DNA of 64,000 nt from positions 496,001 to 560,000 of the forward strand of contig NZ_FWFK01000002.1 in assembly GCF_900172265.1 (NCBI RefSeq), read 5' to 3'. Below are positions 1-14,471 of the stretch, in pieces. A program made the translations under genes and the position numbers. The stretch comes from Roseivivax jejudonensis (GTDB taxonomy: Bacteria > Pseudomonadota > Alphaproteobacteria > Rhodobacterales > Rhodobacteraceae). The notes below the pieces were generated by a model. That model did no database searches. It saw nothing but the letters and a program-made list of their open reading frames with translations, and was not told the DNA's origin. Position 1 is the first letter of the stretch. Each line of letters begins with the position of its first letter.

Positions 1-2
1 CG

Positions 3-3000
3 GAGCGCGATCTCGCGGAATACGCGCCGGTGTTTGCCGAGAACAGGATCGATCTCGACATCCTGCCGCACCTCGCGCTCGAAGACCTAAAGGACATGGG
101 CATCACTGCGGTCGGCGACCGTCGTCGCATCATGCGCGCGATCGAGGCGTTGCAAGGCGACGCGGACGCCACCCGCGAGCGGCCGGCCCCTGCGCCGGAG
201 CCTGCGCCGCAGCCGATGGCCGCAAAGCGGCAGGTCACCGTCATGTTCGTCGATCTTTCGGGGTTCACCCGGATGACCAGCGGTCTCGACGTCGAGGAAA
301 CTCACGCGGTCCTCAACCGGTTCTTTGCCGCGGCCGACAGCATCATCGAAAGATACGGCGGCACGATCGACAAGCATATCGGTGACGCCGTGATGGCGGT
401 GTTCGGCCGCGAGGTTTCGAGCACCAACGATACCGAGAGGGCGGCGCGCGCCGCGCTCGATATCCATGCGACGATGCCGTCGCTCGATCCACCGATGCGA
501 TGCCATATCGGGATCGCGTCCGGGCAAGTTATCGCGAGCGCCACGGGCAGCGACGTGCACACCGAAAGCACGGTCCTCGGGGATGGCGTCAACCTCGCCG
601 CCCGGATCACGGATCAGGCGACGGCCGGTGAGACGCTTGTTTCCGACGACATCCACCTCGCCCTCGGCACGCAGTTCGGCGGGGAGGATCGCGGCGAGGT
701 CGCGCTGGCCGGGATCCGGACGCCGCAGCGGCTCTGGTGCCTGACCGAGATCGCGTCTTACGGGACGGCGCCCAAGCACGCCTTCATCGGTCGCACGCGC
801 GAGATGTCGCTGCTGCGCGCGGCCTGCGAACGCTGCCGTGAACACAACACCGGAGAGGTTCACGTCGTGTTGGGCGAGCCCGGCATCGGCAAGACCCACC
901 TTGCCGAAGAGGTCGCGGCCGCGGCACACGACATGGGCTTTGCCGTTCACCGCGCCGCGGTGCTCGATTTCGGCGCCCTCGAAGGGCAATCCGCCCTCCA
1001 GAGCCTCGTGCGGAGCCTCCTCGGCGTTCAGCTGGCCGACGACGCCGGCACCGTCAGTGCGACCGCCGACCGGGCCGAGGCGTCCGGCTGGATCGCCGCT
1101 GCCAGCCGCGTGCACCTCAATGCCCTGCTCGAACTCGAGCAGGACGCCGGCATCGCCGAGGTCTATGCCAACATGGACAACGCCGCCCGGCAGCGCGGGC
1201 GCCGCGCGCTGATCGAGGAACTGATCCTTGCGCGCAGCGCCGCGGCGCCGCTCCTCATGCAGATCGAGGACATCCACTGGGCGACGCCGGAGATCCTGTC
1301 CGCGTTCGCGCATGTCGCGGCGTCGATCCGGGATCTGCCCTGCCTGCTCCTTATGACGAGCCGCATCGACGGCGATCCGCTCGACCTCGAGTGGCAGGCG
1401 CAGACCTTCGGCACCTACCTTGCCAAGATCGAGTTGTCGGGGCTGTCGGAAGAGCAATGCCGGCAACTGACGAAGTCGATCCTCGACGCCGGCGACGAAG
1501 ATGTGGGTCTCTTCATCGAACGCGCCGGCGGCAATCCCCTGTTTCTCGAACAGCTCTGGCGCAGCCGCGCTTCGATGGCGGACGACGAACTGCCGGGCAG
1601 CATCCAGGGTATCGTGCAATCGCGTCTCGACGCGATCGCCCCCGCGGCGCGCCGCACGATCCAGGCGGCCTCGGTCCTCGGGCAGCGGCTGTCGCCCGAG
1701 GCGCTGTCCCACCTTTTGGACCCAGAAGAGCCCGATCTGGTCGCGCTGACACGCTCCGGCCTCATGCGCGACAGAGGGTCGTATCTTGCCTTTGCGCACG
1801 CACTGATCCGCGACGGATCCTACAACAGCCTGTTTCGGACCGAGCGGAACGCGCTGCACGCGCGCGCGGCTGTATGGTTCGCCGATCACGACGCGACGCT
1901 GCGTGCCCAGCATCTGGACCGGGCGGGATCGCCCGAGGCGCCGGCGGCCTACCTCGATGCAGCCGCGAGCCTGATCCGCGCCTACCAGTTCGAAGCCGCG
2001 GAGCCTCTCCTGAAGCGCGCGCTCGCCCTCGATGTGACGCCCGAGGTTCGGGTCGACCTGCTCTGCATGCTCGGAGAAACGATCCGGTTGCAGGGTCGAC
2101 CGCTCGAGGCGCTCGAGCAATGCGACGCCGCGGCCGACCAGGCGGAGACCGATGCGCAACTCTGCCGTATCCACCTCGAACGCGCCCAGTCGGCACGCGA
2201 GACCAGCCGCTACCAGGAGGCACTGGACAGTCTCGGGATTGCCGAAGGCGCGGCGCGGCGAAGTGGCGACGACACGAGTCTGGCTCGGGTGTTCTACATC
2301 CGCGGCAACATCTATTTTCCACTCGGCCGGTTCGACGAGGCGCTGGCCAGCAACGAGAAGGCCTTGGAGGTCGCACGCGCGCTCGGCTCCGTAAGGCTCG
2401 AAGTCGGGGCGCTGAGCGGTTTCGGGGACGCGTATTTCATGAACGGCGCGATGAAGACGGCCGCCGGCTACTACAGTCAGGCGGTGGAGCGTGCCCGGCC
2501 AGACGGGCTCGTCCGCGACGTGGCGGCGAACCTGCATAATCTGAGCGTGGCCCGGACCTACAGCGGCGACGTGCGGCAGGGTCGCACAGACGGCATCGAG
2601 GCGGTCGAGATTTCCCGGACGTACTTCGCGCTGGTGCCCGAATGCGTGTCGCAGACATGCCTGGGCGTCGCGCTCACGCTGCTCGACGAGATCGATGACG
2701 CGCTGGAAGCCTTTGGCCAATCGGCGGAGGTTGGACGCCGAGTCGGGGCCAAGCGGCTGGAGGCGCAGGCACTCGAACATCTGGCGCGCACTCAGGTCTA
2801 TGCAGGTCAGTTCGACAGCGCGCGACGCACCGGCCGCGACGCCGTCGAGATGGCATTGGCGCACGGCCCCAATTTCGTGGGTCCGAAATCGCTGTCCGCC
2901 CTGGCCCTCGCGCTAGACGATCCGGCCGAACAGGACACGCTGTTGGCGCAAGGGGTCGAGATCATTGCGAAAGGCTGCGTCGGGCACAACCACCTGCATT

Positions 3001-3263
3001 TCTATCCCGATGCCTGCGCGGTCATGATCGCGCGCGCCGAGTGGGACCGCGCGATGGCCTACGCGGACGCGCTCGAGGCGATAAGCGGGAAGGAACGGCT
3101 GCCGCTCGTGGACCTGACGCTGCGCGAGGTCCGGCTGATCGTCGAATGCGGTCGGCAGCACCAGCCGGTCGCGGACACGGACGCGGCTGCTGCACTGCGC
3201 CGGGACTTCGTACAGCTGGGGATCCGGCGCAGCCTGCTGGGCGGCACCGATTTCGCCGGCTGA
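3..3263 (+). CDS. SAM domain / class III adenylate cyclase / AAA ATPase / TPR signalling protein (5' partial)
   Basis: Predicted to make cAMP under control of a STAND-type ATPase and TPR sensor. The frame is open to the left edge, and the first residues (ERDLAEYAPVF...) already lie inside a SAM-like domain, so the true start is outside the window; the GTG at 30 is not the real start. Next comes a class III cyclase catalytic domain beginning FVDLSGFT (first metal Asp), with IGDAVMAVFG (second metal Asp) and VNLAARI (transition-state Asn and Arg), so it looks catalytically competent. It is followed by an ATPase domain with Walker A GEPGIGKTHL and a Walker B-like stretch MQIEDIHWA, then about 500 residues of TPR-like helical repeats. 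Cyclase/AAA/TPR fusions are common in Alphaproteobacteria; the ligand is unknown. The next gene starts 95 bp downstream on the same strand and may be cotranscribed. Confidence 0.9.
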   Translation, partial: ERDLAEYAPVFAENRIDLDILPHLALEDLKDMGITAVGDRRRIMRAIEALQGDADATRERPAPAPEPAPQPMAAKRQVTVMFVDLSGFTRMTSGLDVEETHAVLNRFFAAADSIIERYGGTIDKHIGDAVMAVFGREVSSTNDTERAARAALDIHATMPSLDPPMRCHIGIASGQVIASATGSDVHTESTVLGDGVNLAARITDQATAGETLVSDDIHLALGTQFGGEDRGEVALAGIRTPQRLWCLTEIASYGTAPKHAFIGRTREMSLLRAACERCREHNTGEVHVVLGEPGIGKTHLAEEVAAAAHDMGFAVHRAAVLDFGALEGQSALQSLVRSLLGVQLADDAGTVSATADRAEASGWIAAASRVHLNALLELEQDAGIAEVYANMDNAARQRGRRALIEELILARSAAAPLLMQIEDIHWATPEILSAFAHVAASIRDLPCLLLMTSRIDGDPLDLEWQAQTFGTYLAKIELSGLSEEQCRQLTKSILDAGDEDVGLFIERAGGNPLFLEQLWRSRASMADDELPGSIQGIVQSRLDAIAPAARRTIQAASVLGQRLSPEALSHLLDPEEPDLVALTRSGLMRDRGSYLAFAHALIRDGSYNSLFRTERNALHARAAVWFADHDATLRAQHLDRAGSPEAPAAYLDAAASLIRAYQFEAAEPLLKRALALDVTPEVRVDLLCMLGETIRLQGRPLEALEQCDAAADQAETDAQLCRIHLERAQSARETSRYQEALDSLGIAEGAARRSGDDTSLARVFYIRGNIYFPLGRFDEALASNEKALEVARALGSVRLEVGALSGFGDAYFMNGAMKTAAGYYSQAVERARPDGLVRDVAANLHNLSVARTYSGDVRQGRTDGIEAVEISRTYFALVPECVSQTCLGVALTLLDEIDDALEAFGQSAEVGRRVGAKRLEAQALEHLARTQVYAGQFDSARRTGRDAVEMALAHGPNFVGPKSLSALALALDDPAEQDTLLAQGVEIIAKGCVGHNHLHFYPDACAVMIARAEWDRAMAYADALEAISGKERLPLVDLTLREVRLIVECGRQHQPVADTDAAAALRRDFVQLGIRRSLLGGTDFAG

Positions 3264-3358: not shown

Positions 3359-4486
3359 ATGAGTGCAGAAAGTAAGATCTGGATCGTAAGCGGACTGGTA
3401 TCCGCCGTGCTCGCCTGGATCCTGTTCACGCTGTGGTCGATCATGAACCAGTTCGAGGGCGATCCGACACAGCTGGCCGGGCCCGATGCGGTTCACGCCT
3501 ATTTCGACGAGATGAACGTGGCGCCCGCCTTCGAGATCGCGACCGGCGTCTACGTGCAGTCGCTCGAATTCGAGGGCGCGACGGACGTTCGTGCCAGCGG
3601 CTACATCTGGCAATTCTACCAAGACGGCGTCCACGACGAGGTCAAGCCGCCCCCGGGTGAGGCCGGTTTCATCCTTCCCGAACGGGTGAATGCCGGCGAC
3701 GGGGTGATCGAGGAGGCCTACCGCCTGCGCAGGAGCGACGGCGAGCTTATCGGCTGGTACTTCGAACAGACCTTGCGGCAGAGCTTTGACTACACCGCGT
3801 ATCCCTTTGATCACAAAACGGTCTGGATCCGGATGTGGCCCAACTCCTACGGCCGGCAGGTTGTCCTCACGCCCGACTTCGACGCCTACCCGGCCACGGG
3901 CGCGGAGGACATCTTCGGCATCGACGAGCGCATCGTTCTCGGCACGTGGGAGCGGGAGAACACCTATTTCGACTACAAGCCATCGGATCTGAACACGAGC
4001 CTCGGCCTCGATCGCTCGCCGATGCAGGCGGGCTTTCCGGAACTGCACTACAACGTCGTGGTCAAACGCAAGTTCGGCAACGCCTTCATCGTGCACATGG
4101 TGCCGCTCTTCGTTGTCGCGACGTTGCTCTTCGGCGCGCTCATGACCGTCACGCGAAAGGAAGACCTCGCCGCGCGGCACGATTTCAGCACGTCCACGGT
4201 GATCGAGACCGCCTCGGTGCTGTTCTTCGTCGTGCTGCTGGCGCACGTGCAGCTGAGGGAGTCCATTGCCGGTTCCGAGGTGATCTACATGGAGTACTTC
4301 TATTTCCTCATGTACTTCCTGCTGCTCGGCGTTTCGGTGAACACGTACTGGTTCGTGTCCGACATGCTGCCGTGGGCGCGGGTCATCCATTACCGCGACA
4401 ACCTGATCCCGAAGGCCGCGTTCTGGCCGGCGGTCCTCGCGGCGATGATCGCGATCACGCTCTACAACATGGCGATCCTGATATGA
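3359..4486 (+). CDS. Pentameric ligand-gated ion channel-like membrane protein
   Basis: 375 aa. Seen: one hydrophobic helix at residues 7-28 with no clear signal-peptidase site, a roughly 200-residue extracytoplasmic domain, then four hydrophobic helices at about 241-263, 280-301, 307-331 and 353-374. The extracytoplasmic part has features of the Cys-loop-family ligand-binding fold: a strand like GVYVQSLEF, an aromatic-rich YIWQFYQDG turn, and a YPFD motif at 148-151 followed by a strand. A YNVVVKRKFGNAF stretch then leads into the first channel helix, as in prokaryotic pLGICs such as GLIC. Inference: a homopentameric channel or receptor. The extra N-terminal helix is unusual; most prokaryotic members have a cleaved signal peptide. 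It follows the adenylate cyclase gene and is tail-to-tail (7 bp) with the giant fusion gene. It could instead be a non-conducting sensor of the same fold. Confidence 0.6.
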   Translation: MSAESKIWIVSGLVSAVLAWILFTLWSIMNQFEGDPTQLAGPDAVHAYFDEMNVAPAFEIATGVYVQSLEFEGATDVRASGYIWQFYQDGVHDEVKPPPGEAGFILPERVNAGDGVIEEAYRLRRSDGELIGWYFEQTLRQSFDYTAYPFDHKTVWIRMWPNSYGRQVVLTPDFDAYPATGAEDIFGIDERIVLGTWERENTYFDYKPSDLNTSLGLDRSPMQAGFPELHYNVVVKRKFGNAFIVHMVPLFVVATLLFGALMTVTRKEDLAARHDFSTSTVIETASVLFFVVLLAHVQLRESIAGSEVIYMEYFYFLMYFLLLGVSVNTYWFVSDMLPWARVIHYRDNLIPKAAFWPAVLAAMIAITLYNMAILI

Positions 4487-4493
4487 CGCCGCC

Positions 4494-7400
4494 TCACTCG
4501 GCGTGCTCGAAGCCCGGCTTGAGCGAACCTTGTGCCATTTCGAGCGTGTAGACCGACACTGTCTCGGCCGCCCCCTGCTCCAGCGCGGCGAGCGGCGAGG
4601 CAGGATCCGCGATGACGTACGCGTAGGCGTGCTCGACCCGGTCATTGACGACCACCGCGATCTTCTTGCGGACATAGACGTTGTCGGCTGCCGCGCGACC
4701 ATTGTAGCCCTCGAGCGCATCGAGTGTGCGCAGGCCAGATGCCGTCACGCAGTACACTTCGCCCTCGACCGGCGCGCCGCGGCCCTTCAGATCCACCAGC
4801 GTCGCCATCCGATGCAGGTACGGACACTTCCGGTTGTCGCAGGCGGCCTCCTTCTGAACGATCAACGGCATGGCCTGTCGGGTCCGTGCTGCGCCGACGA
4901 ACTGGCCCAGCGCGTCGGCATGTGCCTCATGGTTCGGAAATCCGCGCTTGAGCGAGCCGTAGGTGAAATAGAGATACGTGGGCTCGTCCTGCGGAGCGTC
5001 CGGCGGGCCGGGCTCCGGCTCCGGCGCGGTCTCGATCCGTGCGCCGGCTTGCGCGGCCCACGTCTTCAACCGGTCGCGGATCGGCTCGGGCACGTTCGGA
5101 TCCTGCGCATACCCCAGGCAGGGGCGCGCATCGATGCCCTCGGCACCGAGAAGGATATCCACCATCTCGGTCGAGCCGTTGGAAATCGCGACGTGCAAGG
5201 CGGTGAAACCCATGTCGTTCGTCGCGTTGACGTTGATGCCGCGCGCGATCAAGTCGCGCGACACCTCGAGATCCGGAACGCCGCGGGCGATTCCGTGCTC
5301 CGTCATCTCGCCCTCGCCGCCGGCGGCGAAATGCAACAGCGTGTCCCCGGTCAGCTCGTCGATGACATCGATGCCCACCACGCCCTCGTCGATCGTTCTG
5401 AAGATCCGCCGCCATTGGGCGTATTCGTCCGACGCGGCGGCATCGCGGGCCCAGGCGATCACCCGGCTGTCCTGATCGTCGAGCTGGTCGAACGCCTGGT
5501 CCAGCGCCATCATGATCTGGTCGGGCGTCGCCATCATGCCGATGCCCTGCGTCCCGTTCGACAGCGTGCCGGCGCGCGGCCCCACCAGATCCACACCCAG
5601 CTTCTTCAGGGCTGCGACGTTGTCCTGGGTGGTGATGTTGTTCCACATGTGCGTGTTGCACGCTGGGCAAAGCAGAGCCGGCTTGCGCTGGTACTGCCAC
5701 GCCACGAACACCGAAGAGATCAGGTTGTCGGCGAGTCCGCCGGCGATCTTGGCCATCGTGTTGCAGGTCACAGGCGCGACCACGACGCAATCCGCCCAGT
5801 CGCAAAGCGCCAGGTGCGACGCCCGCAACGGCATCCCGTATTCGATGTAGTGGAAGTTCCACTCGTGATCGTCTCGGTAGATGTCGTTGGGGCTGATCCG
5901 CGCGAGGATGCGCCCGGCCCCGTGATCCTTGAAGAACTTCTCCGCCGCGACGGAGGGAACGAGCTTCACGTTGTGCCCGGCATCGGTGATCCGTTCCACC
6001 AGCTCCGGGATCTTGTCGGCGGCCGACGACCCGCAGGCCGCGAGAAGCACGTTGCGCTTGCCGTCCGGCCGCTCGGTCAGTCCGCCTTTCGGATAGCCGA
6101 AGATGTTGCGGTCGAGACTCGGCGACTCGTGCCGCAGAAGGACCGGAAGCCCGGCCTCGTGGATTCGCGCCTGCAGGCTGCCATCCATGACCATGCCGAC
6201 GATGTCCTCGCGCCCGCCGAGGCACTCGCCGTTGAAGAACAGGTAGGGCACGGAGTCCTGACCGGTCATCGCAACCAGCTGACGGCGCATCTTGACGGCA
6301 CGGGCCTCGCCTCCCGACACGTCGATCGCGGACACCTCGGTCACACCGATGTTGTCGAGGATGTTGCGCAGCATGTTCGACCACGGATCCTCGTCGTCGT
6401 AGAACAGCACGATCGGCCTGTTTTCCACGAGGTCCGGAGCATCGTCCGGAACGCCGACCGGCGCGCTTTCCTTGAGCACCAGCATCCCCGGATTTCGCAG
6501 GTCGCGCAGCCCGCGGAAGATCTGCGCCCGCGGCGCCTGCCAGACCTGCGAGGTGGCCGGGCTCATGTCGACGAGCGTGACCGTGTCCTCGTCCGCGTCG
6601 TAATCGATGCACAGGCACCAGAACTCTTCCAAGAGCGCGGTTTCGCGATAGGCGCTGTCGGGCGCCTTGATCGCATCGAAGCCGAGCACCCGGTTGAGGT
6701 CGATGTTGATCATCAAGTGGCAGCCGTCCTGGTCCGCGACCTCGTGCAGCTGGGCGGTGAACCAGTCGTCGGGAGACAGATCGCGCTGCGCCTCGTCCCG
6801 TTCCGAATACCCGCGGAATTCGCTTCTGAGGTGCTTGTGCGCGGCCTGCGCCAGATACATCTGCGCGATGCGGTCCATCTCGCGCGCGTCTGCGGCCCGG
6901 CTAAGCGCCTCGCTGTAGCCGGCCGTCGAGAACAGAAGGAGCTTGTCCTCGTCGACATCGGTGTCGCCGAGAATGGCCAGGCTTTCGGACAGGACACCGA
7001 GACTGTTCAGGTTGGGGCTCGATCGGCGAAAAAGGTTGCGCTTGTTGCGGCGCCCTGCAGCCAGATAGCGCGTCGTGTCGACGTATCGGCAGGGCTGCTT
7101 GAGGCACTGCAGCCGCGTGGTCACCGCGTTGCGTGCCGAGAAGCGCAACAGCCCGCGCGAGCGCATCGAGGTCCCGTCGCGGTCGGACATCGCGGCGTAA
7201 AGCCGATCGACCGTCGTCACCCACAGCTTGCCGTACTTTTCCGGATGAACGTCGATCATGTGGATGAGGCCGGTGCTCGGGTTGCACTTGGCGATGATCG
7301 CGAAATGTCCGCCGGGCATCGTCGCCTTGCCGTGGGCCATCCCGACCTGGAAGTTCGCGACAAGAATGTCGTTGTCCCCACCGAGGCGGTTCGATTCATC

Positions 7401-8093
7401 GATCGCCTCGAGCAGCTTTTCGGTCGAGGTCGTCGCCTGATCCATGAAGTAGGCCTGCACCTGAACGGTTTCCCGCAGGCCCTGCTTGTGGATGAAGGTG
7501 CATGCCACGTCGAAGAGCTCGGCCAGGGAGATGCCGTCGTTGACGACGAAACTCGCGGGCAACTGGCACTCGCGAAAGATGTCGTTCACCTCGCAGGTGA
7601 AGCCGAGCGCCGACATGCTCAACGCGGCGGCCGTCACGCTGCAGCAGTTGATCGGCTGCTGAAAGTTCTGCATGTGAACCGCGACGAGATCCCCGAACAG
7701 GACCGAGAACACCGCCGCGCGCACGTCGTCAGGCAGTTCGAACCACTCCGCGCTCGACAGGTACGCGAGCCGCGTCCCGGACCGCGCACGCGCCTGCATC
7801 GTGACCGGGATGTTGAAGATTTCGAGGTGCTCTTCGTAGAAGAAATCGCCCGCATCCGCGGTGGCGAGCGTCGCTTCGCCCTGCAGCAGCTCCACCGCGC
7901 CGTCGAGGACCACGTACATACCCTTCGGTGCGAGGATGGCCTCGCCCGTCGCCTCGATCACCTGCAGGCGGGGCTTGATCGCCGCGGCGTCGAGCGGCCC
8001 CGCCTCCGCCTCGAATGCGGACAGGACAACCTCGAGATCCTGCTCCGACAGGGCATCGGAACTCGAGACTTGGATCGGTTCATTCGATGTCAT
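4494..8093 (-). CDS. Giant multidomain thiol-peptide protein: cNMP-like / phytochelatin synthase / Grx-like / PPC decarboxylase-like flavoprotein / ankyrin / GGCT
   Basis: 1199 aa from the ATG at 8093, chosen because AGGAG lies about 8 nt upstream; an in-frame start 33 nt earlier lacks this. Domains: cNMP-binding-like fold about 25-130; phytochelatin synthase about 145-325 with the papain-like triad Cys151 (NCCSVTAAA), His263 (GGHFAII) and Asp281 (MIDVHP); a second phytochelatin synthase-like unit about 350-545 in which the His position is Phe; glutaredoxin-like about 558-645 keeping SVPYLFFNGECLGG but with DPWS where CxxC/CGFS would be; HFCD flavoprotein about 678-870 with catalytic-type His760, a CNT motif and PACNTHMW; ankyrin-like repeats about 895-1000; AIG2/GGCT domain about 1038-1170 with YGSL and Glu1128. 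Inference: it processes glutathione-like gamma-glutamyl peptides. The cNMP cassette lacks the usual phosphate-binding Arg, so ligand binding is uncertain. Confidence 0.85.
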   Translation of the reverse strand: MTSNEPIQVSSSDALSEQDLEVVLSAFEAEAGPLDAAAIKPRLQVIEATGEAILAPKGMYVVLDGAVELLQGEATLATADAGDFFYEEHLEIFNIPVTMQARARSGTRLAYLSSAEWFELPDDVRAAVFSVLFGDLVAVHMQNFQQPINCCSVTAAALSMSALGFTCEVNDIFRECQLPASFVVNDGISLAELFDVACTFIHKQGLRETVQVQAYFMDQATTSTEKLLEAIDESNRLGGDNDILVANFQVGMAHGKATMPGGHFAIIAKCNPSTGLIHMIDVHPEKYGKLWVTTVDRLYAAMSDRDGTSMRSRGLLRFSARNAVTTRLQCLKQPCRYVDTTRYLAAGRRNKRNLFRRSSPNLNSLGVLSESLAILGDTDVDEDKLLLFSTAGYSEALSRAADAREMDRIAQMYLAQAAHKHLRSEFRGYSERDEAQRDLSPDDWFTAQLHEVADQDGCHLMINIDLNRVLGFDAIKAPDSAYRETALLEEFWCLCIDYDADEDTVTLVDMSPATSQVWQAPRAQIFRGLRDLRNPGMLVLKESAPVGVPDDAPDLVENRPIVLFYDDEDPWSNMLRNILDNIGVTEVSAIDVSGGEARAVKMRRQLVAMTGQDSVPYLFFNGECLGGREDIVGMVMDGSLQARIHEAGLPVLLRHESPSLDRNIFGYPKGGLTERPDGKRNVLLAACGSSAADKIPELVERITDAGHNVKLVPSVAAEKFFKDHGAGRILARISPNDIYRDDHEWNFHYIEYGMPLRASHLALCDWADCVVVAPVTCNTMAKIAGGLADNLISSVFVAWQYQRKPALLCPACNTHMWNNITTQDNVAALKKLGVDLVGPRAGTLSNGTQGIGMMATPDQIMMALDQAFDQLDDQDSRVIAWARDAAASDEYAQWRRIFRTIDEGVVGIDVIDELTGDTLLHFAAGGEGEMTEHGIARGVPDLEVSRDLIARGINVNATNDMGFTALHVAISNGSTEMVDILLGAEGIDARPCLGYAQDPNVPEPIRDRLKTWAAQAGARIETAPEPEPGPPDAPQDEPTYLYFTYGSLKRGFPNHEAHADALGQFVGAARTRQAMPLIVQKEAACDNRKCPYLHRMATLVDLKGRGAPVEGEVYCVTASGLRTLDALEGYNGRAAADNVYVRKKIAVVVNDRVEHAYAYVIADPASPLAALEQGAAETVSVYTLEMAQGSLKPGFEHAE

Positions 8094-8394
8094 GACGGAA
8101 ACTCCTGCAATACCCGAACACCCCACGGATCGGCGGCCGACAACCGCGGCGACACGCCAACGCTAGTTGCAATAGCGCGCTTCGGGCAACCTTTAGGGGC
8201 ATCGCGCGGCGTTCCGTCCCGGGGCCGTCACCGAGTGCCGATGGACCTTCGGTCGCATTCGGGATCCCTGCCGCCGCCTTGCATCGGACCGCGCTCGCAT
8301 GCAGGACTCGCATAACTCAGACAGTGTGGTTCGCAGGTCCAGGTCATTCGGTCCCGGTCGCGAGGCACAGCCCGCGGCCCAATCACGATCGCGA
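8094..8394. promoter_or_regulatory. Divergent intergenic region
   Basis: This 301-bp spacer separates the giant fusion gene (minus strand) from the membrane cNMP-domain gene (plus strand), so it should carry both promoters. I see no convincing CRP-type inverted repeat or strong -35/-10 pair by eye. Short in-frame codons continue upstream of 8395 on the plus strand but look unlike protein. Confidence 0.4.
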
Positions 8395-9108
8395 ATGACA
8401 CAGACGCTTTCTCCCTTTGCCGCCGATATCCTCGGAATCGTCGGGGCGGTCATCTACCTCGGCGCCTATGCAGCGCTGCAACTCGGCCTGATCCGGGGGA
8501 ACGGATATCTCTATGCCTCGCTGAACCTTGTGGCGGCCGGTTTCGTCCTGGCGGGAATGTCGCACCGGTTCTATCCGGCGGCCGCAATCATTCAGGTCGT
8601 TATCATCGCGATCAGCGTCATCGGCATGGCCCGGCTCTTGATCCTGTCGCGCGCTATCCGGTTCAGTCCCGAAGAACAGCAGATGCACGCGGCGAAGTTT
8701 CCCGAGTTGTCACGGATCGCGGCCCGGCGCCTGTTCGACTCCGGTCTCTGGCTCGATGCCGAGGCCGGCACCACCCTCATGCGCGAGGGCGAAACGCACG
8801 GCGTCCTGATCTACCTCGCGTCTGGTGCAGCCGACATCTATTCCGCCGGAAAACACGTCGGCACCGTGGAAGACGGGAATTTCCTGGGCGAAATGACTGT
8901 TCTGCAGAACGAGCCTGCCACCGCGACGGTGGTGCTGGCGCGGGACGCCGATTACTTCCGGATCGAGGGAGCCAAGCTGAGGCGCCTCGGCGCGCGAGAT
9001 CCGGAGGTTCGGGTGCAGATCGAGAACGCGCTGAGCCGCGACACGCGCCTCAAGCTCGTGAGCGCCAATTCCCGCCTCGGCCGGGGCAGTCCGGTCGATC
9101 CGTCCTGA
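8395..9108 (+). CDS. Membrane protein with C-terminal cNMP-binding domain (CBU_0592-like N-terminus)
   Basis: 237 aa from the ATG at 8395 (MTQTLSPFAADILG); the frame extends 32 codons further upstream but that stretch reads as noncoding. The N-terminal 75 residues hold about three hydrophobic helices and resemble the small CBU_0592-like membrane family (ILGIVGAVIYLGAY). Residues about 100-215 form a cyclic-nucleotide-binding-like jelly roll (ALIYLASGAADIYSAG-type strands, then GNFLGEMTVL). The cassette reads GNFLGE...EPATATV, where canonical domains have Arg before the small residues, so cAMP binding is not assured. Possible role: a membrane-tethered nucleotide sensor. It converges (17-bp gap) with a second membrane/cNMP gene and lies beside an adenylate cyclase, which supports a shared signalling role by context only. 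Confidence 0.7.
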   Translation: MTQTLSPFAADILGIVGAVIYLGAYAALQLGLIRGNGYLYASLNLVAAGFVLAGMSHRFYPAAAIIQVVIIAISVIGMARLLILSRAIRFSPEEQQMHAAKFPELSRIAARRLFDSGLWLDAEAGTTLMREGETHGVLIYLASGAADIYSAGKHVGTVEDGNFLGEMTVLQNEPATATVVLARDADYFRIEGAKLRRLGARDPEVRVQIENALSRDTRLKLVSANSRLGRGSPVDPS

Positions 9109-9125: not shown

Positions 9126-9776
9126 CTAATCCGGCGCGCGGCCCGGGGCTGACGGAGCTTCGGTGAAGCCGTCGTAAAGCTCGGGTCGACGCCTGCTGCC
9201 CTCGATCAGGCGACGCGCAATCGTTTTCAGTATATACATGCCGAAGACCGGGCTCTGGTGATAGAGGCGCGCGAATGCCTGTTCGTCGATCACCAGGATC
9301 CGGCAATCGCCCTGGCAAATTGCCGATGTGGTCCGCTGTCGCGCATTCGAGAAATACGCCATTTCGCCGAAGAGTTCGCCCTTCCCGAGACGGACGTCGA
9401 TCTCGGGCAGCGAGACCTGCCCGGCCTCGATGTAATATACCCGATCCGGCGCATCGCCACGGGTGAAAAGGACCGACCCGTCGGTGTGCGTTTCTGCCCG
9501 CATCAGCGGACCCAGGACCTCGATCGGATCACCTGTGCGACGCATGCGTTCGAGCCGCCGTTTCTGGACGAGGATCTGGGAGAGTCTGAAGATGTTCAGC
9601 GGCAAAAGCAGGGCGTGCAGAACAAGGGTCGGATAGATCTCGGCGAGCACACCGAAACCGACAAAGAACAGGTTCGCCGCGATGTTGATGATGCGAAGCG
9701 GCAGCATCGTCCGCATGGAGCTGGCCGAAAGCGTCAATACCGCCGCGACCCAGCCCAGGATTTCCGCCTCAATCAT
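9126..9776 (-). CDS. Membrane protein with C-terminal cNMP-binding domain (YgjV-like N-terminus)
   Basis: 216 aa, ATG at 9776. The N-terminal 75 residues carry two to three hydrophobic helices (ILGWVAAVLTLSASSM..., IINIAANLFFVGFGVL) resembling YgjV-type small membrane proteins. A cNMP-binding domain follows (VYYIEAGQVSLPEIDV, then GELFGEMAYFSNARQRTTSAI). This cassette keeps GE, GEMA and a following Arg, so of the three cNMP domains in the cluster it is the best candidate for real cyclic-nucleotide binding. There is no DNA-binding domain, so it is not a Crp/Fnr regulator. It is convergent with the neighbouring membrane/cNMP gene that uses a different membrane scaffold; the two may form a hetero-complex, which is inference. 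Confidence 0.72.
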   Translation of the reverse strand: MIEAEILGWVAAVLTLSASSMRTMLPLRIINIAANLFFVGFGVLAEIYPTLVLHALLLPLNIFRLSQILVQKRRLERMRRTGDPIEVLGPLMRAETHTDGSVLFTRGDAPDRVYYIEAGQVSLPEIDVRLGKGELFGEMAYFSNARQRTTSAICQGDCRILVIDEQAFARLYHQSPVFGMYILKTIARRLIEGSRRRPELYDGFTEAPSAPGRAPD

Positions 9777-12838: not shown

Positions 12839-14101
12839 TCAGCCGAACATGTCGGCCGTTATCGCGGCGTACCAGCCGACGCTTTCCTGGTAGGTCTGCG
12901 CGCGGGTCGCGTCGTCCTCGCCGGTTTCGCTGATGAACCCGCCGGAGGATGCGATCTTCTCCTCGGTCGCCTCGTAGGACGCGCCGACCTTCACCCCGTC
13001 CTCGGGCGCGATGAGCGACCAGCAGGTGTTCGAGAACCGCGCCGGGAACACGCGGCTGTCGGTCAACGCGCCGAGCACCGCATTGGCACAGACCTTGGCC
13101 TGGCTGTTGGCGGCATAGCCCGATTTCGGCATGTCGCCCTGGGCCGCCGCATCGCCGAGAATGTGAATCTCGGGATCCGACTTGGACGACATGTCCGCGG
13201 CGTTGACCGGGGCCCAGTCGCCGTCGGTCAGCCCGGCCTCGTGCACGATCCGTCCGGCGCGCTGCGCCGGGATCACGTTGCACACGTCGACGGACTCGAC
13301 CTGCCCATCGATGTCGACGGTCATCTCGGCCGGGTTCACCGACACGTTCTCGCCGCCGAAATCGGGGCCGATGCGTTCGATCATGCCGCCGTAGTGGCGC
13401 TGCCATCCTTCCTCGAACAGCGCCTGCTTCGAGAAGTTGGCCTTCGGATCGACGATCAGGATCTTCGCGGTCGGGTTCACCTCGGTCAGGGCGTGGGCGA
13501 CCATCGACACGCGCTCGTAGGGTCCGGGCGGGCAGCGGTACGGGTTGGGTGGCGCGACCATCGCGAAGGTGCCGCCCTCGGGCATCGCCAGGATCTGCGC
13601 CTTGAGCAACTCGGTCTGCGACCCGCCCTTGTAGGCGTGCGGCATCACGTTTTGCGCCGTTACGTCCCAGCCGGGCACGGCACCGTCCTTGAAATCGATC
13701 CCCGGCGACAGGATCAGCCGGTCGTAGGGAACCGACGCGCCCGAGGCGAGCTCGACGGTCTTGGCGTCACGGTCGACACCCACGGCCCAGTCGTGCACGA
13801 CGTTGATGCCGTATTCCGCGGCCAGCGCCCCGTAGTCGTGGCCGAGGCTCTCCATCTCGCGGAAGCCGCCGATATAGAGGTTCGAGAAGAAGCAGGTGTA
13901 ATACGTGCGCGTCGGCTCGATCAGGGTCACGTTGACCGCGCCGGCCGAATCCTTGGCGATGTAACGCGCCGCGGTCGCGCCGCCGGCGCCGCCTCCGACG
14001 ACCACCACCCGGGGGGCTCCCTGCGCCATGACCGTCGGCGCCGCGAGTGCCGCGCTGCTGGCGGCGATGCCGCCCAGCACGCTCCGTCTGTTGAAGTGCA
14101 T
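12839..14101 (-). CDS. soxF: SoxF, FAD-dependent sulfide dehydrogenase (flavocytochrome c flavoprotein subunit)
   Basis: 420 aa from the ATG at 14101, which has GGGAGGA about 6 nt upstream. A Tat signal (NRRSVLGGIAASSAAL) precedes a Rossmann FAD motif VVVVGGGAGGATAARYI, then ASVPYDRLILSPGIDFKDG and a C-terminal EDGVKVGASYEAT stretch, as in FccB/SoxF. It would oxidise sulfide in the periplasm and pass electrons to the heme subunit encoded just upstream (soxE). In P. pantotrophus SoxF also stimulates the core Sox system. The gene ends the sox run, 28 bp after soxE. Confidence 0.93.
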   Translation of the reverse strand: MHFNRRSVLGGIAASSAALAAPTVMAQGAPRVVVVGGGAGGATAARYIAKDSAGAVNVTLIEPTRTYYTCFFSNLYIGGFREMESLGHDYGALAAEYGINVVHDWAVGVDRDAKTVELASGASVPYDRLILSPGIDFKDGAVPGWDVTAQNVMPHAYKGGSQTELLKAQILAMPEGGTFAMVAPPNPYRCPPGPYERVSMVAHALTEVNPTAKILIVDPKANFSKQALFEEGWQRHYGGMIERIGPDFGGENVSVNPAEMTVDIDGQVESVDVCNVIPAQRAGRIVHEAGLTDGDWAPVNAADMSSKSDPEIHILGDAAAQGDMPKSGYAANSQAKVCANAVLGALTDSRVFPARFSNTCWSLIAPEDGVKVGASYEATEEKIASSGGFISETGEDDATRAQTYQESVGWYAAITADMFG

Positions 14102-14129
14102 GTCAGTCCTCCCTGGGTGCGCGGGCCCG

Positions 14130-14471
14130 CTATTCGGCCTCGCTGAAATACTTGGCGAGCGCGGCGATCTCCTCCTCGCCGAGCCGCTTCGCGATCTGCT
14201 CCATGACCTGATGCTCGCGTTCGCCGATCCGGTAATCGACCAGCGCGCCCACGATGTAGCTCTCCGGCAGCATGTGGATCTGCGGGATACCACCTTCCGG
14301 GTTGGGCGCGTGGCACGCCGTGCACTCGGACGCGAGGTAGGCGCCGTAGTCGCTGTCGGCCTCGATCGCCATGATCTGCGCGACCTCGGGATGGGTCAGA
14401 TCGTTCGCCGCGTGCGCGGCGCCGGCGAGGGCCAGCGCCGCACTGGCGGGGAAGAGGGCGCGTTGGATCAT
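14130..14471 (-). CDS. soxE: SoxE, c-type cytochrome subunit (short, single heme)
   Basis: 113 aa with a signal peptide (MIQRALFPASAALALAGAAHA) and one heme motif ECTACH at about residue 50, followed by a HMLPESYIVGALVDYR stretch that can supply the distal Met. Its start overlaps the soxD stop (ATGA). Position before soxF identifies it as the cytochrome partner of the flavoprotein. It is smaller than the diheme SoxE of P. pantotrophus and closer in size to a monoheme FccA, so the complex here may be a monoheme flavocytochrome c. Confidence 0.85.
   Translation of the reverse strand: MIQRALFPASAALALAGAAHAANDLTHPEVAQIMAIEADSDYGAYLASECTACHAPNPEGGIPQIHMLPESYIVGALVDYRIGEREHQVMEQIAKRLGEEEIAALAKYFSEAE

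Follow-up and report, generated by a model that had tools for sequence, protein, structure and literature searches.

Gene Content of the Locus

We analyzed a stretch of 64,000 nt from the Roseivivax jejudonensis genome (contig NZ_FWFK01000002.1, positions 496,001 to 560,000), referred to here as the window, in which the gene for a seven-module protein adjoins a gene predicted to encode a pentameric ligand-gated ion channel (pLGIC) and, beyond it, a nucleotide cyclase gene. A preliminary description of this DNA missed the neighboring channel and cyclase genes, and the cassette of enzyme, hidden pLGIC and cyclase is the main new content of the present analysis. The features, including the phytochelatin synthase (PCS) units of the large protein, are as follows.

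1..3263, plus strand: class III nucleotide cyclase gene with SAM, AAA_16 and TPR domains (Pfam); likely start an ATG 28 bases before the window
3359..4486, plus strand: predicted pLGIC gene, 375 aa (predicted fold, diagnostic residues)
4494..8093, minus strand: seven-module protein, 1199 aa plus stop; 34 distinct full-length relatives
7719..8051, minus strand: cNMP-binding-like domain, residues 15-125 (Pfam 3.2e-4, below cut-off)
7119..7712, minus strand: putative catalytic PCS unit 1, residues 128-325 (Pfam, phmmer, fold, triad)
6450..7118, minus strand: probable degenerate PCS-fold unit 2, residues 326-548 (element order in the AlphaFold2 model)
6099..6437, minus strand: glutaredoxin (Grx)-fold domain without the active-site Cys (DPWS; phmmer to Grx structures 2.2e-7)
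5478..6080, minus strand: putative flavin mononucleotide (FMN) cysteine-decarboxylase (HFCD) domain (Pfam, PDB sequence search, fold, conservation)
5094..5381, minus strand: ankyrin repeats, approximately residues 905-1000 (Pfam)
4524..4982, minus strand: gamma-glutamylamine cyclotransferase (GGACT) domain with YGSL and Glu1128 (Pfam, PDB sequence search, fold, conservation)

The large protein is encoded by a single minus-strand open frame, with its ATG at 8093 and its stop codon at 4494-4496. Relatives were sought by a scan of 84,980 species genomes seeded by six peptide patterns, which gives a lower bound and yielded 34 loci. In total, 33 scan loci, one further genome (G141) and the window make up 35 distinct full-length loci. 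Thirty-seven homologous frames were obtained outside the window, of which three were the same locus reached twice and were counted once, leaving 34 distinct relatives. All 34 carry the full chain in one stop-free frame, at 50-81% identity, which rules out the assembly fusion or frameshift that the preliminary description had raised as a possibility. Twenty-eight of the 37 frames were less than 93% identical, and the conservation counts below come from an alignment of the window with 23 of these (L010, L011, L020, L026 and L027 were omitted) and two cyanobacterial pieces or, for the channel, from an alignment of the window with 17 channel frames.

Modules of the Large Protein

Pfam matches above the curated cut-offs were obtained for Phytochelatin (residues 145-314, 4.9e-10), Flavoprotein (681-861, 1.4e-25), ankyrin repeats (PF12796, 910-988, 5.4e-7; PF00023, 962-988, 5.8e-9) and GGACT (1042-1163, 2.1e-14), whereas Glutaredoxin (570-624) fell just short at 22.6 vs 22.9 bits and cNMP_binding (56-120) scored 21 vs 27.5 bits. 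The single seven-module chain of the preliminary description, ankyrin repeats included, is thus borne out by the frame, the Pfam matches and the 34 relatives, with two modules below cut-off; the PCS and flavoprotein modules, on whose detection by domain searches that description had been made to depend, are both among the significant matches. The AlphaFold2 model of the whole chain, built from 26 rows, had a pLDDT of 67.6 and a pTM of 0.38, so that the domains are readable and their mutual arrangement is not. Foldseek matched this model to 1mvn, 2bu3, 1vkb and 3juc, all at probability 1.00. No signal peptide was visible by eye, and the protein is probably cytosolic.

The first PCS unit matched Alr0975 in phmmer (2e-4, His/Asp part only) and 2bu3 in fold (Foldseek 5e-7, rank 17). 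Its triad of Cys151, His263 and Asp281, described as intact in the preliminary description, is kept in all 24 aligned rows. The neighboring Cys150 is as invariant as Cys151, and from the motif spacing we take Cys151 to be the catalytic residue of the two. The unit resembles Alr0975 and the primitive PCS (2bu3, 6th5) in its fold, GGH...D region and Cys-His-Asp triad; however, Alr0975 is a stand-alone enzyme, whereas the PCS of the large protein precedes a probable degenerate copy and is fused to five other modules. For the second unit, hhalign was not significant (P 0.06-0.08). In the AlphaFold2 model, which is of medium confidence, residues 363-543 repeat, in unchanged order, the 12 helices and strands seen in residues 150-320, with one additional short helix in the second unit and without statistical control of the correspondence. 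When counterpart positions were set by matching these secondary-structure elements, the Cys position (364) was found to be Ser in 21 rows and Gly in three, the His position was Phe491/Trp492 in 24/24 rows, and Asp509 was kept in 24/24. On this basis, the second unit may be regarded as a degenerate PCS-fold copy; the inactive unit proposed earlier agrees with the fold order of the model and with the loss of Cys and His, although it was not detectable at the sequence level.

The cNMP-like domain, known from its Pfam match below cut-off, keeps Glu87 in 24/24 rows and has Val97 in 24/24, at the position of an Arg that we take to be the phosphate-binding residue of cNMP domains. It has likely lost nucleotide binding, leaving the cNMP-like fold of the earlier account in place without the usual Arg. 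Two more window proteins with cNMP_binding above cut-off are encoded next to the large gene (8299-9108, plus strand; 9126-9776, minus strand); one has Arg at the position of Val97 and the other lacks it too. Neither gene had a counterpart in the relatives' flanks examined, which in all neighbor comparisons reached at most 8 kb (for the window, 20 kb on its right side only) and covered frames of at least 80 aa.

The Grx domain matches glutaredoxins (3uiw, 5zvl) in the fold region, in the cis-Pro and, in the window's own sequence, in the GG loop, but their active-site cysteine is absent. The equivalent of CPYC is D-P-W-S in 23 rows, D-S-W-S in one and D-P-D-S in one, with Cys in 0 of 25, and the cis-Pro (Pro616) is present in all 25. 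The glutaredoxin-like assignment therefore holds for the fold and not for thiol-disulfide chemistry.

The flavoprotein domain matched the PPC decarboxylase AtHAL3a (PDB sequence search 6e-27, 32% identity), and the first-ranked Foldseek match was 1mvn, the PPC decarboxylase C175S in complex with pantothenoylaminoethenethiol. The likeness to AtHAL3a (1mvl, 1mvn, 1e20) and CoaC includes His760 and Asn813, the catalytic His and the active-site Asn, each found in 25/25 rows. In contrast, Cys175 of HAL3 aligns with Asn846, which is Asn in 25/25 rows, so that the PPC-decarboxylase type named earlier stands for His and Asn and fails for this Cys. Five cysteines of the domain (Cys687, 764, 769, 777 and 812) are present in 25/25 rows and Cys809 in 24/25. 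The domain scores far under the CoaBC and CoaC equivalog cut-offs. One other flavoprotein-region match occurs in the genome of the window, a 410-aa frame, which we take to be the size of CoaBC; because of this separate match, the flavoprotein of the large protein is probably not the coenzyme A enzyme. Among the modules, conservation is highest in this domain, at 62-91% identity across six compared rows, and in PCS unit 1.

Flavoproteins of the HFCD family decarboxylate C-terminal cysteines, and Hal3-type members also moonlight as scaffold or regulator modules. Two alternatives may be considered. One is that the flavoprotein and other parts form a non-catalytic scaffold or regulator in which only PCS and/or GGACT work, as the lost catalytic residues of Grx and PCS unit 2 and the replaced Cys175 would allow; given that His760 and Asn813 are nevertheless kept throughout, we consider this quite improbable. 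The other is that the ankyrin repeats present a substrate different from glutathione, which could be the C-terminal Cys of some other peptide, a thiol natural product or a glutathione conjugate, in the manner of lantibiotic or CypD enzymes. The peptidyl-cysteine decarboxylases EpiD, MrsD and SpaF are indeed among the fold matches, with an oxidative outcome that we presume to be shared, ankyrin repeats are present, and a CypD profile gave a very weak match (E 0.13). However, EpiD, MrsD and SpaF are only 17-22% identical, no precursor peptide is known for the large protein, and in sequence the PPC-type matches are far stronger. The neighborhoods showed no conserved extra gene, although frames below 80-100 aa were not examined and a short precursor gene would escape. 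We consider such a substrate equally improbable.

The last module had been described as a gamma-glutamylcyclotransferase; the domain is present, but its type has to be corrected to gamma-glutamylAMINE cyclotransferase. It matched human GGACT (3jub) in the PDB sequence search (9.4e-7), and fold matches were obtained to 1vkb (9.8e-7) and to 3juc (1.7e-6, rank 47), which is gamma-glutamylamine cyclotransferase with 5-oxoproline. The Y-G-S residues and Glu1128 are present in 25/25 rows. According to PMC7022552, YGSL is a motif of GGACT, whose substrates are gamma-glutamylamines (gamma-glutamyl alkylamines), whereas the gamma-glutamylcyclotransferase GGCT acts on alpha-amino acid conjugates. The likeness to GGACT/A2LD1 (3jub, 3juc, 1vkb) extends to the motif YG(S/T)LKRG.PNH and the catalytic Glu. 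The domain here differs in being fused to a flavoprotein, or encoded by a gene overlapping it in a cyanobacterial bin, and in carrying an 11-residue insert relative to the human protein (window 4812-4841) with two cysteines. Cys1085, Cys1090 and, after the insert, His1094, which aligns with a human His, are each found in 25/25 rows; the insert is possibly a metal or redox site.

A Split Version in a Cyanobacterial Bin

In a cyanobacterial metagenome bin, the same modules occur as three genes, PCS1-PCS2, Grx-Flavoprotein-Ank and GGACT, and the last two (L035:7977-9443 and L035:9440-9928) overlap by 4 bases. The PCS1-PCS2 gene (L048) is 42% identical over 488 columns, which include the end of the cNMP-like domain. 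The split marks the functional seams and supports the view that the parts work together. A separate, ordinary PCS (1e-58) is present in the bin as well. PF05023 matched in 7/7 tested genomes and 0/14 controls. Upstream of the two overlapping genes, on the same strand (L035:4015-7229), are OsmC-like, FIST and GAF-cyclase genes.

A Proposed Route From Glutathione to an Aminothiol

The modules, their active-site residues, the split version and the gene linkage described below were established computationally. From their identity we propose, with a probability of roughly 0.45, that the large protein is a single-chain pathway running from glutathione to gamma-Glu-Cys, then to a gamma-Glu-aminothiol, and finally to a free aminothiol and 5-oxoproline. 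PCS unit 1 would remove glycine from glutathione through a Cys151 acyl-enzyme, giving gamma-Glu-Cys. The Grx-fold domain, which lacks Cys and retains the cis-proline, may hold or hand on the gamma-glutamyl thiol together with the dead PCS unit. The FMN domain would then oxidatively decarboxylate the cysteine that is now C-terminal. Because the domain has no counterpart of Cys175, its reaction should end at the ene-thiol, which is the expected product. Alternatively, a conserved flavoprotein Cys might replace Cys175 and lead to gamma-Glu-cysteamine, the candidate being Cys812 beside Asn813. The resulting gamma-glutamylamine would belong to the substrate class of GGACT, which would release 5-oxoproline and the aminothiol. 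Of the possible orders, this one suits the three steps best because gamma-Glu-Cys becomes a gamma-glutamylamine only after decarboxylation. The structures matched are in line with such chemistry, as 2bu3 is titled as the Alr0975 acyl-enzyme with glutathione and 1mvn as the C175S mutant with the ene-thiol. The core idea of the preliminary description, trimming at both ends with decarboxylation of cysteine, is thereby sharpened and appears chemically coherent and plausible; it gains support from the strict conservation of three active sites, the GGACT type and the 4-base overlap in the cyanobacterial bin.

Plain glutathione breakdown or sulfur salvage may be considered instead, with PCS and GGACT degrading, the flavoprotein unrelated or minor, and the neighboring genes acting as stress regulators. 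The PCS, flavoprotein and GGACT families all act on glutathione-type or cysteine compounds, and glutathione synthetase (TIGR01380) was found above cut-off in 7/7 tested genomes, compared with 8/14 control genomes with a match, three of them above cut-off. The presence of this synthetase suits the proposed route as well. However, an amine-specific GGACT, as characterized in PMC7022552, does not fit gamma-Glu-Cys, and a minor flavoprotein would hardly be expected to rank, with PCS unit 1, as the best conserved module. We regard salvage as unlikely and retain the glutathione-to-aminothiol route as the preferred reading.

The Predicted Channel Gene

The channel gene and the large gene are convergent, with their stop codons 7 bases apart. 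Pfam and NCBIfam gave no match for the channel, nor did a profile search against PDB chains; the best of nine hits in a single-sequence phmmer search was a chimeric GABAA receptor, at E 0.18. Because the sequence-profile searches gave no match, assignment as a pLGIC rests on the predicted fold and on diagnostic residues. The AlphaFold2 model had a pLDDT of 63.3 and a pTM of 0.52, with the five models ranging in pLDDT from 63 to 36, and it displays the beta-sandwich and four-helix fold. All 50 listed Foldseek matches were pLGICs (920 matches at E <= 0.001; best GLIC, 7.5e-11).

In PMC4795631, the diagnostic positions of pLGICs, seven in its Table 1, include the [F/Y]PxD loop, the pre-M1 Arg and the M1 Pro. 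Six of these seven could be placed in the window channel, and each was invariant in 18/18 rows. These rows share Y148-P149-F150-D151, R237 and P249, as well as W197, whose placement is less sure; the spacing of 12 from R to P is like that of GLIC (192-204). The M2-M3 loop Pro, given for 88% of the pLGIC family, is present in 15/18 rows and absent from the window (Glu307) and its two nearest rows. Judged by predicted fold and residues together, gene 3359-4486 is predicted to encode a pLGIC. It resembles GLIC and ELIC in the fold, YPxD loop, pre-M1 Arg and M1 Pro, and differs from them in having no sequence-profile match to PDB and in its fixed position beside an enzyme and a cyclase. In Ruegeria intermedia the channel gene (L021:11549-12745, minus strand) contains one in-frame stop. 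More distant relatives of the channel, at E 1e-84 to 1e-99, make up a second subfamily in L058-L061 (G146, G187, G188 and G133), and the one member run against Pfam, L063:8439-9593, likewise gave no match.

The Cyclase Gene and Linkage of the Cassette

The cyclase gene adjoins the channel gene on the same strand. Asp75, Asp119, Asn188 and Arg192, which we take to be its metal and transition-state residues, are kept in 34/34 readable rows, and Lys115 is Arg in two. Across the 35 loci, the cyclase is present in 34 (in L023 it is broken into two frames), and the channel lies tail-to-tail with the large gene in 32, with gaps from 59 to -22 bases. These 32 loci form one clade (95/95), and the channel was therefore probably joined once and then kept; the tree carries the tool's warning of long branches meeting for L032, L033, L035 and L040. 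Two loci, L033 and L066 (the latter from G141), have the cyclase directly upstream of the large gene in the same orientation, and their genomes yielded no channel of this family. Within the family sample, the large protein accompanies the close channel subfamily in 4/4 genomes, four further genomes have the distant subfamily and no large protein, and one (G141) has the large protein without the channel.

In the flanks examined, five loci, namely the window, L003 (Seohaeicola), L023 (Roseovarius), L033 and L032, have no further gene in common with any other locus, although the L003 contig consists almost entirely of the cassette. L005, L006 and L066 each share single stretches with one locus, transposase genes among them, and L004 has an aldehyde dehydrogenase common to 21 other loci. 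In L066 (2004-13358), the cyclase, the large enzyme and a downstream gene for an MscS-type channel lie between two IS240-type transposase genes, which are 84-85% alike in the aligned pieces of DNA; this arrangement suggests a mobile form.

The cassette could also be read as a phage-defense-like system, in which the AAA/TPR cyclase senses infection and its nucleotide activates the channel and a glutathione-depleting effector. The patchy spread of the gene and the IS240-type genes flanking the G141 copy would be in keeping with this, as would the AAA_16 and TPR domains of the cyclase and its match to Pycsar cyclase models (best 4.1e-19), although we presume that PycC models match class III cyclases in general. 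PADLOC, however, gave no match for the large protein or the channel, and eight of the 10 neighboring frames tested were without a PADLOC match. Of the other two, the one strong match is an ABC transporter by Pfam and the weak SspA/DndA match a class V aminotransferase; five of the 10 frames were without a Pfam match and are possibly spurious. A defense island is thus unsupported among these frames, and we consider a defense role very improbable.

A Possible Signaling Circuit

Because the large gene is a fixed partner of the cyclase gene and, in most lineages, of the channel gene, it most likely serves a signaling or stress circuit. One form of such a circuit would be that cysteamine or the ene-thiol made by the enzyme leaves the cell and opens the adjoining pLGIC, with the cyclase linking the response to a cyclic nucleotide. 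A cysteamine-like product is a candidate ligand since, according to PMC3119659, cysteamine gave the strongest low-concentration response in ELIC. We regard this specific circuit as distinctly unlikely, and it is, like every reaction and product proposed above, something we infer. If true, a bacterial relative of neurotransmitter receptors would have a biosynthetic enzyme as its partner, and a bacterial pLGIC would gain a native ligand.

Several points weigh against the single-chain route and its link to the channel. The FMN domain may be non-catalytic or may have a different cysteine compound as its substrate, and Asn846 argues against cysteamine itself and points to the ene-thiol. Given the medium AlphaFold2 confidence, passage of substrate between active sites cannot be judged from the model. 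The cyanobacterial PCS1-PCS2 gene lies on a contig other than that of its two partners, its alignment starts only at residue 63, and Pfam detects Phytochelatin alone in it, with no match for cNMP. Since no signal peptide is visible on the enzyme, the aminothiol would have to exit the cell to reach the channel. The fold match of the channel is modest (TM-score to the query 0.40-0.50 and 11-18% identity in the listed rows), and the wider channel family has members that stand by themselves, as the stretches of G133 (4.5 kb) and of G146, G187 and G188 (17.5-18 kb) contain neither cyclase nor large protein. The 35 loci are related by descent in the tree and are not independent events. Finally, the Halieaceae locus (L032) has no channel or cyclase in its 8-kb flanks and no such channel in its genome, and the cyanobacterial bin likewise lacks such a channel and carries a cyclase that is built differently.

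Each single module belongs to a known family. Among the matches listed from the open-licence literature, none describes the chain or such a glutathione-to-aminothiol pathway, and none reports a pLGIC gene of bacteria that has an enzyme and a cyclase as constant neighbors. For pLGICs of unicellular organisms, PMC4795631 (2016) states that no biological role was known for any. The cassette makes such a role testable, as relatives are present in named strains such as Ruegeria (Silicibacter) lacuscaerulensis ITI-1157 (L014).

Distribution and Neighboring Genes

The 35 loci belong mainly to Ruegeria and other Roseobacteraceae or Paracoccaceae, with one Halieaceae bin (L032, 50% identity). The gene is rare, being found in 5/295 genomes of the family (its own included) and, as its own genome only, in 1/385 of the class and 1/289 of the phylum. 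For the Halieaceae, 1/120 genomes had it, namely the bin itself, and among cyanobacteria the Grx-Flavoprotein-Ank query matched 1/386 genomes and the PCS query 1/201, both being the bin described above.

Searches for a phage or plasmid origin lent it no support. Stretches of viral contigs, to which the phage search was confined, gave no match to the six peptide patterns of the large protein, and no place in the plasmid collection covered 80% of the query. Where 20 of the 48 plasmid records were listed, the match was to the flavoprotein region only; one Salipiger gene, which carries a PCS family annotation, matched residues 42-548.

Two further observations concern neighboring genes. Approximately 2.7 kb from the large gene of the Halieaceae bin (L032:14265-16509) are an FGE-sulfatase/DinB_2 gene and a histidine-specific methyltransferase gene, a pair that we take to be typical of ergothioneine synthesis. 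Near the cassette in the window is a gene for the flavoprotein of a flavocytochrome c sulfide dehydrogenase (12839-14293, minus strand).

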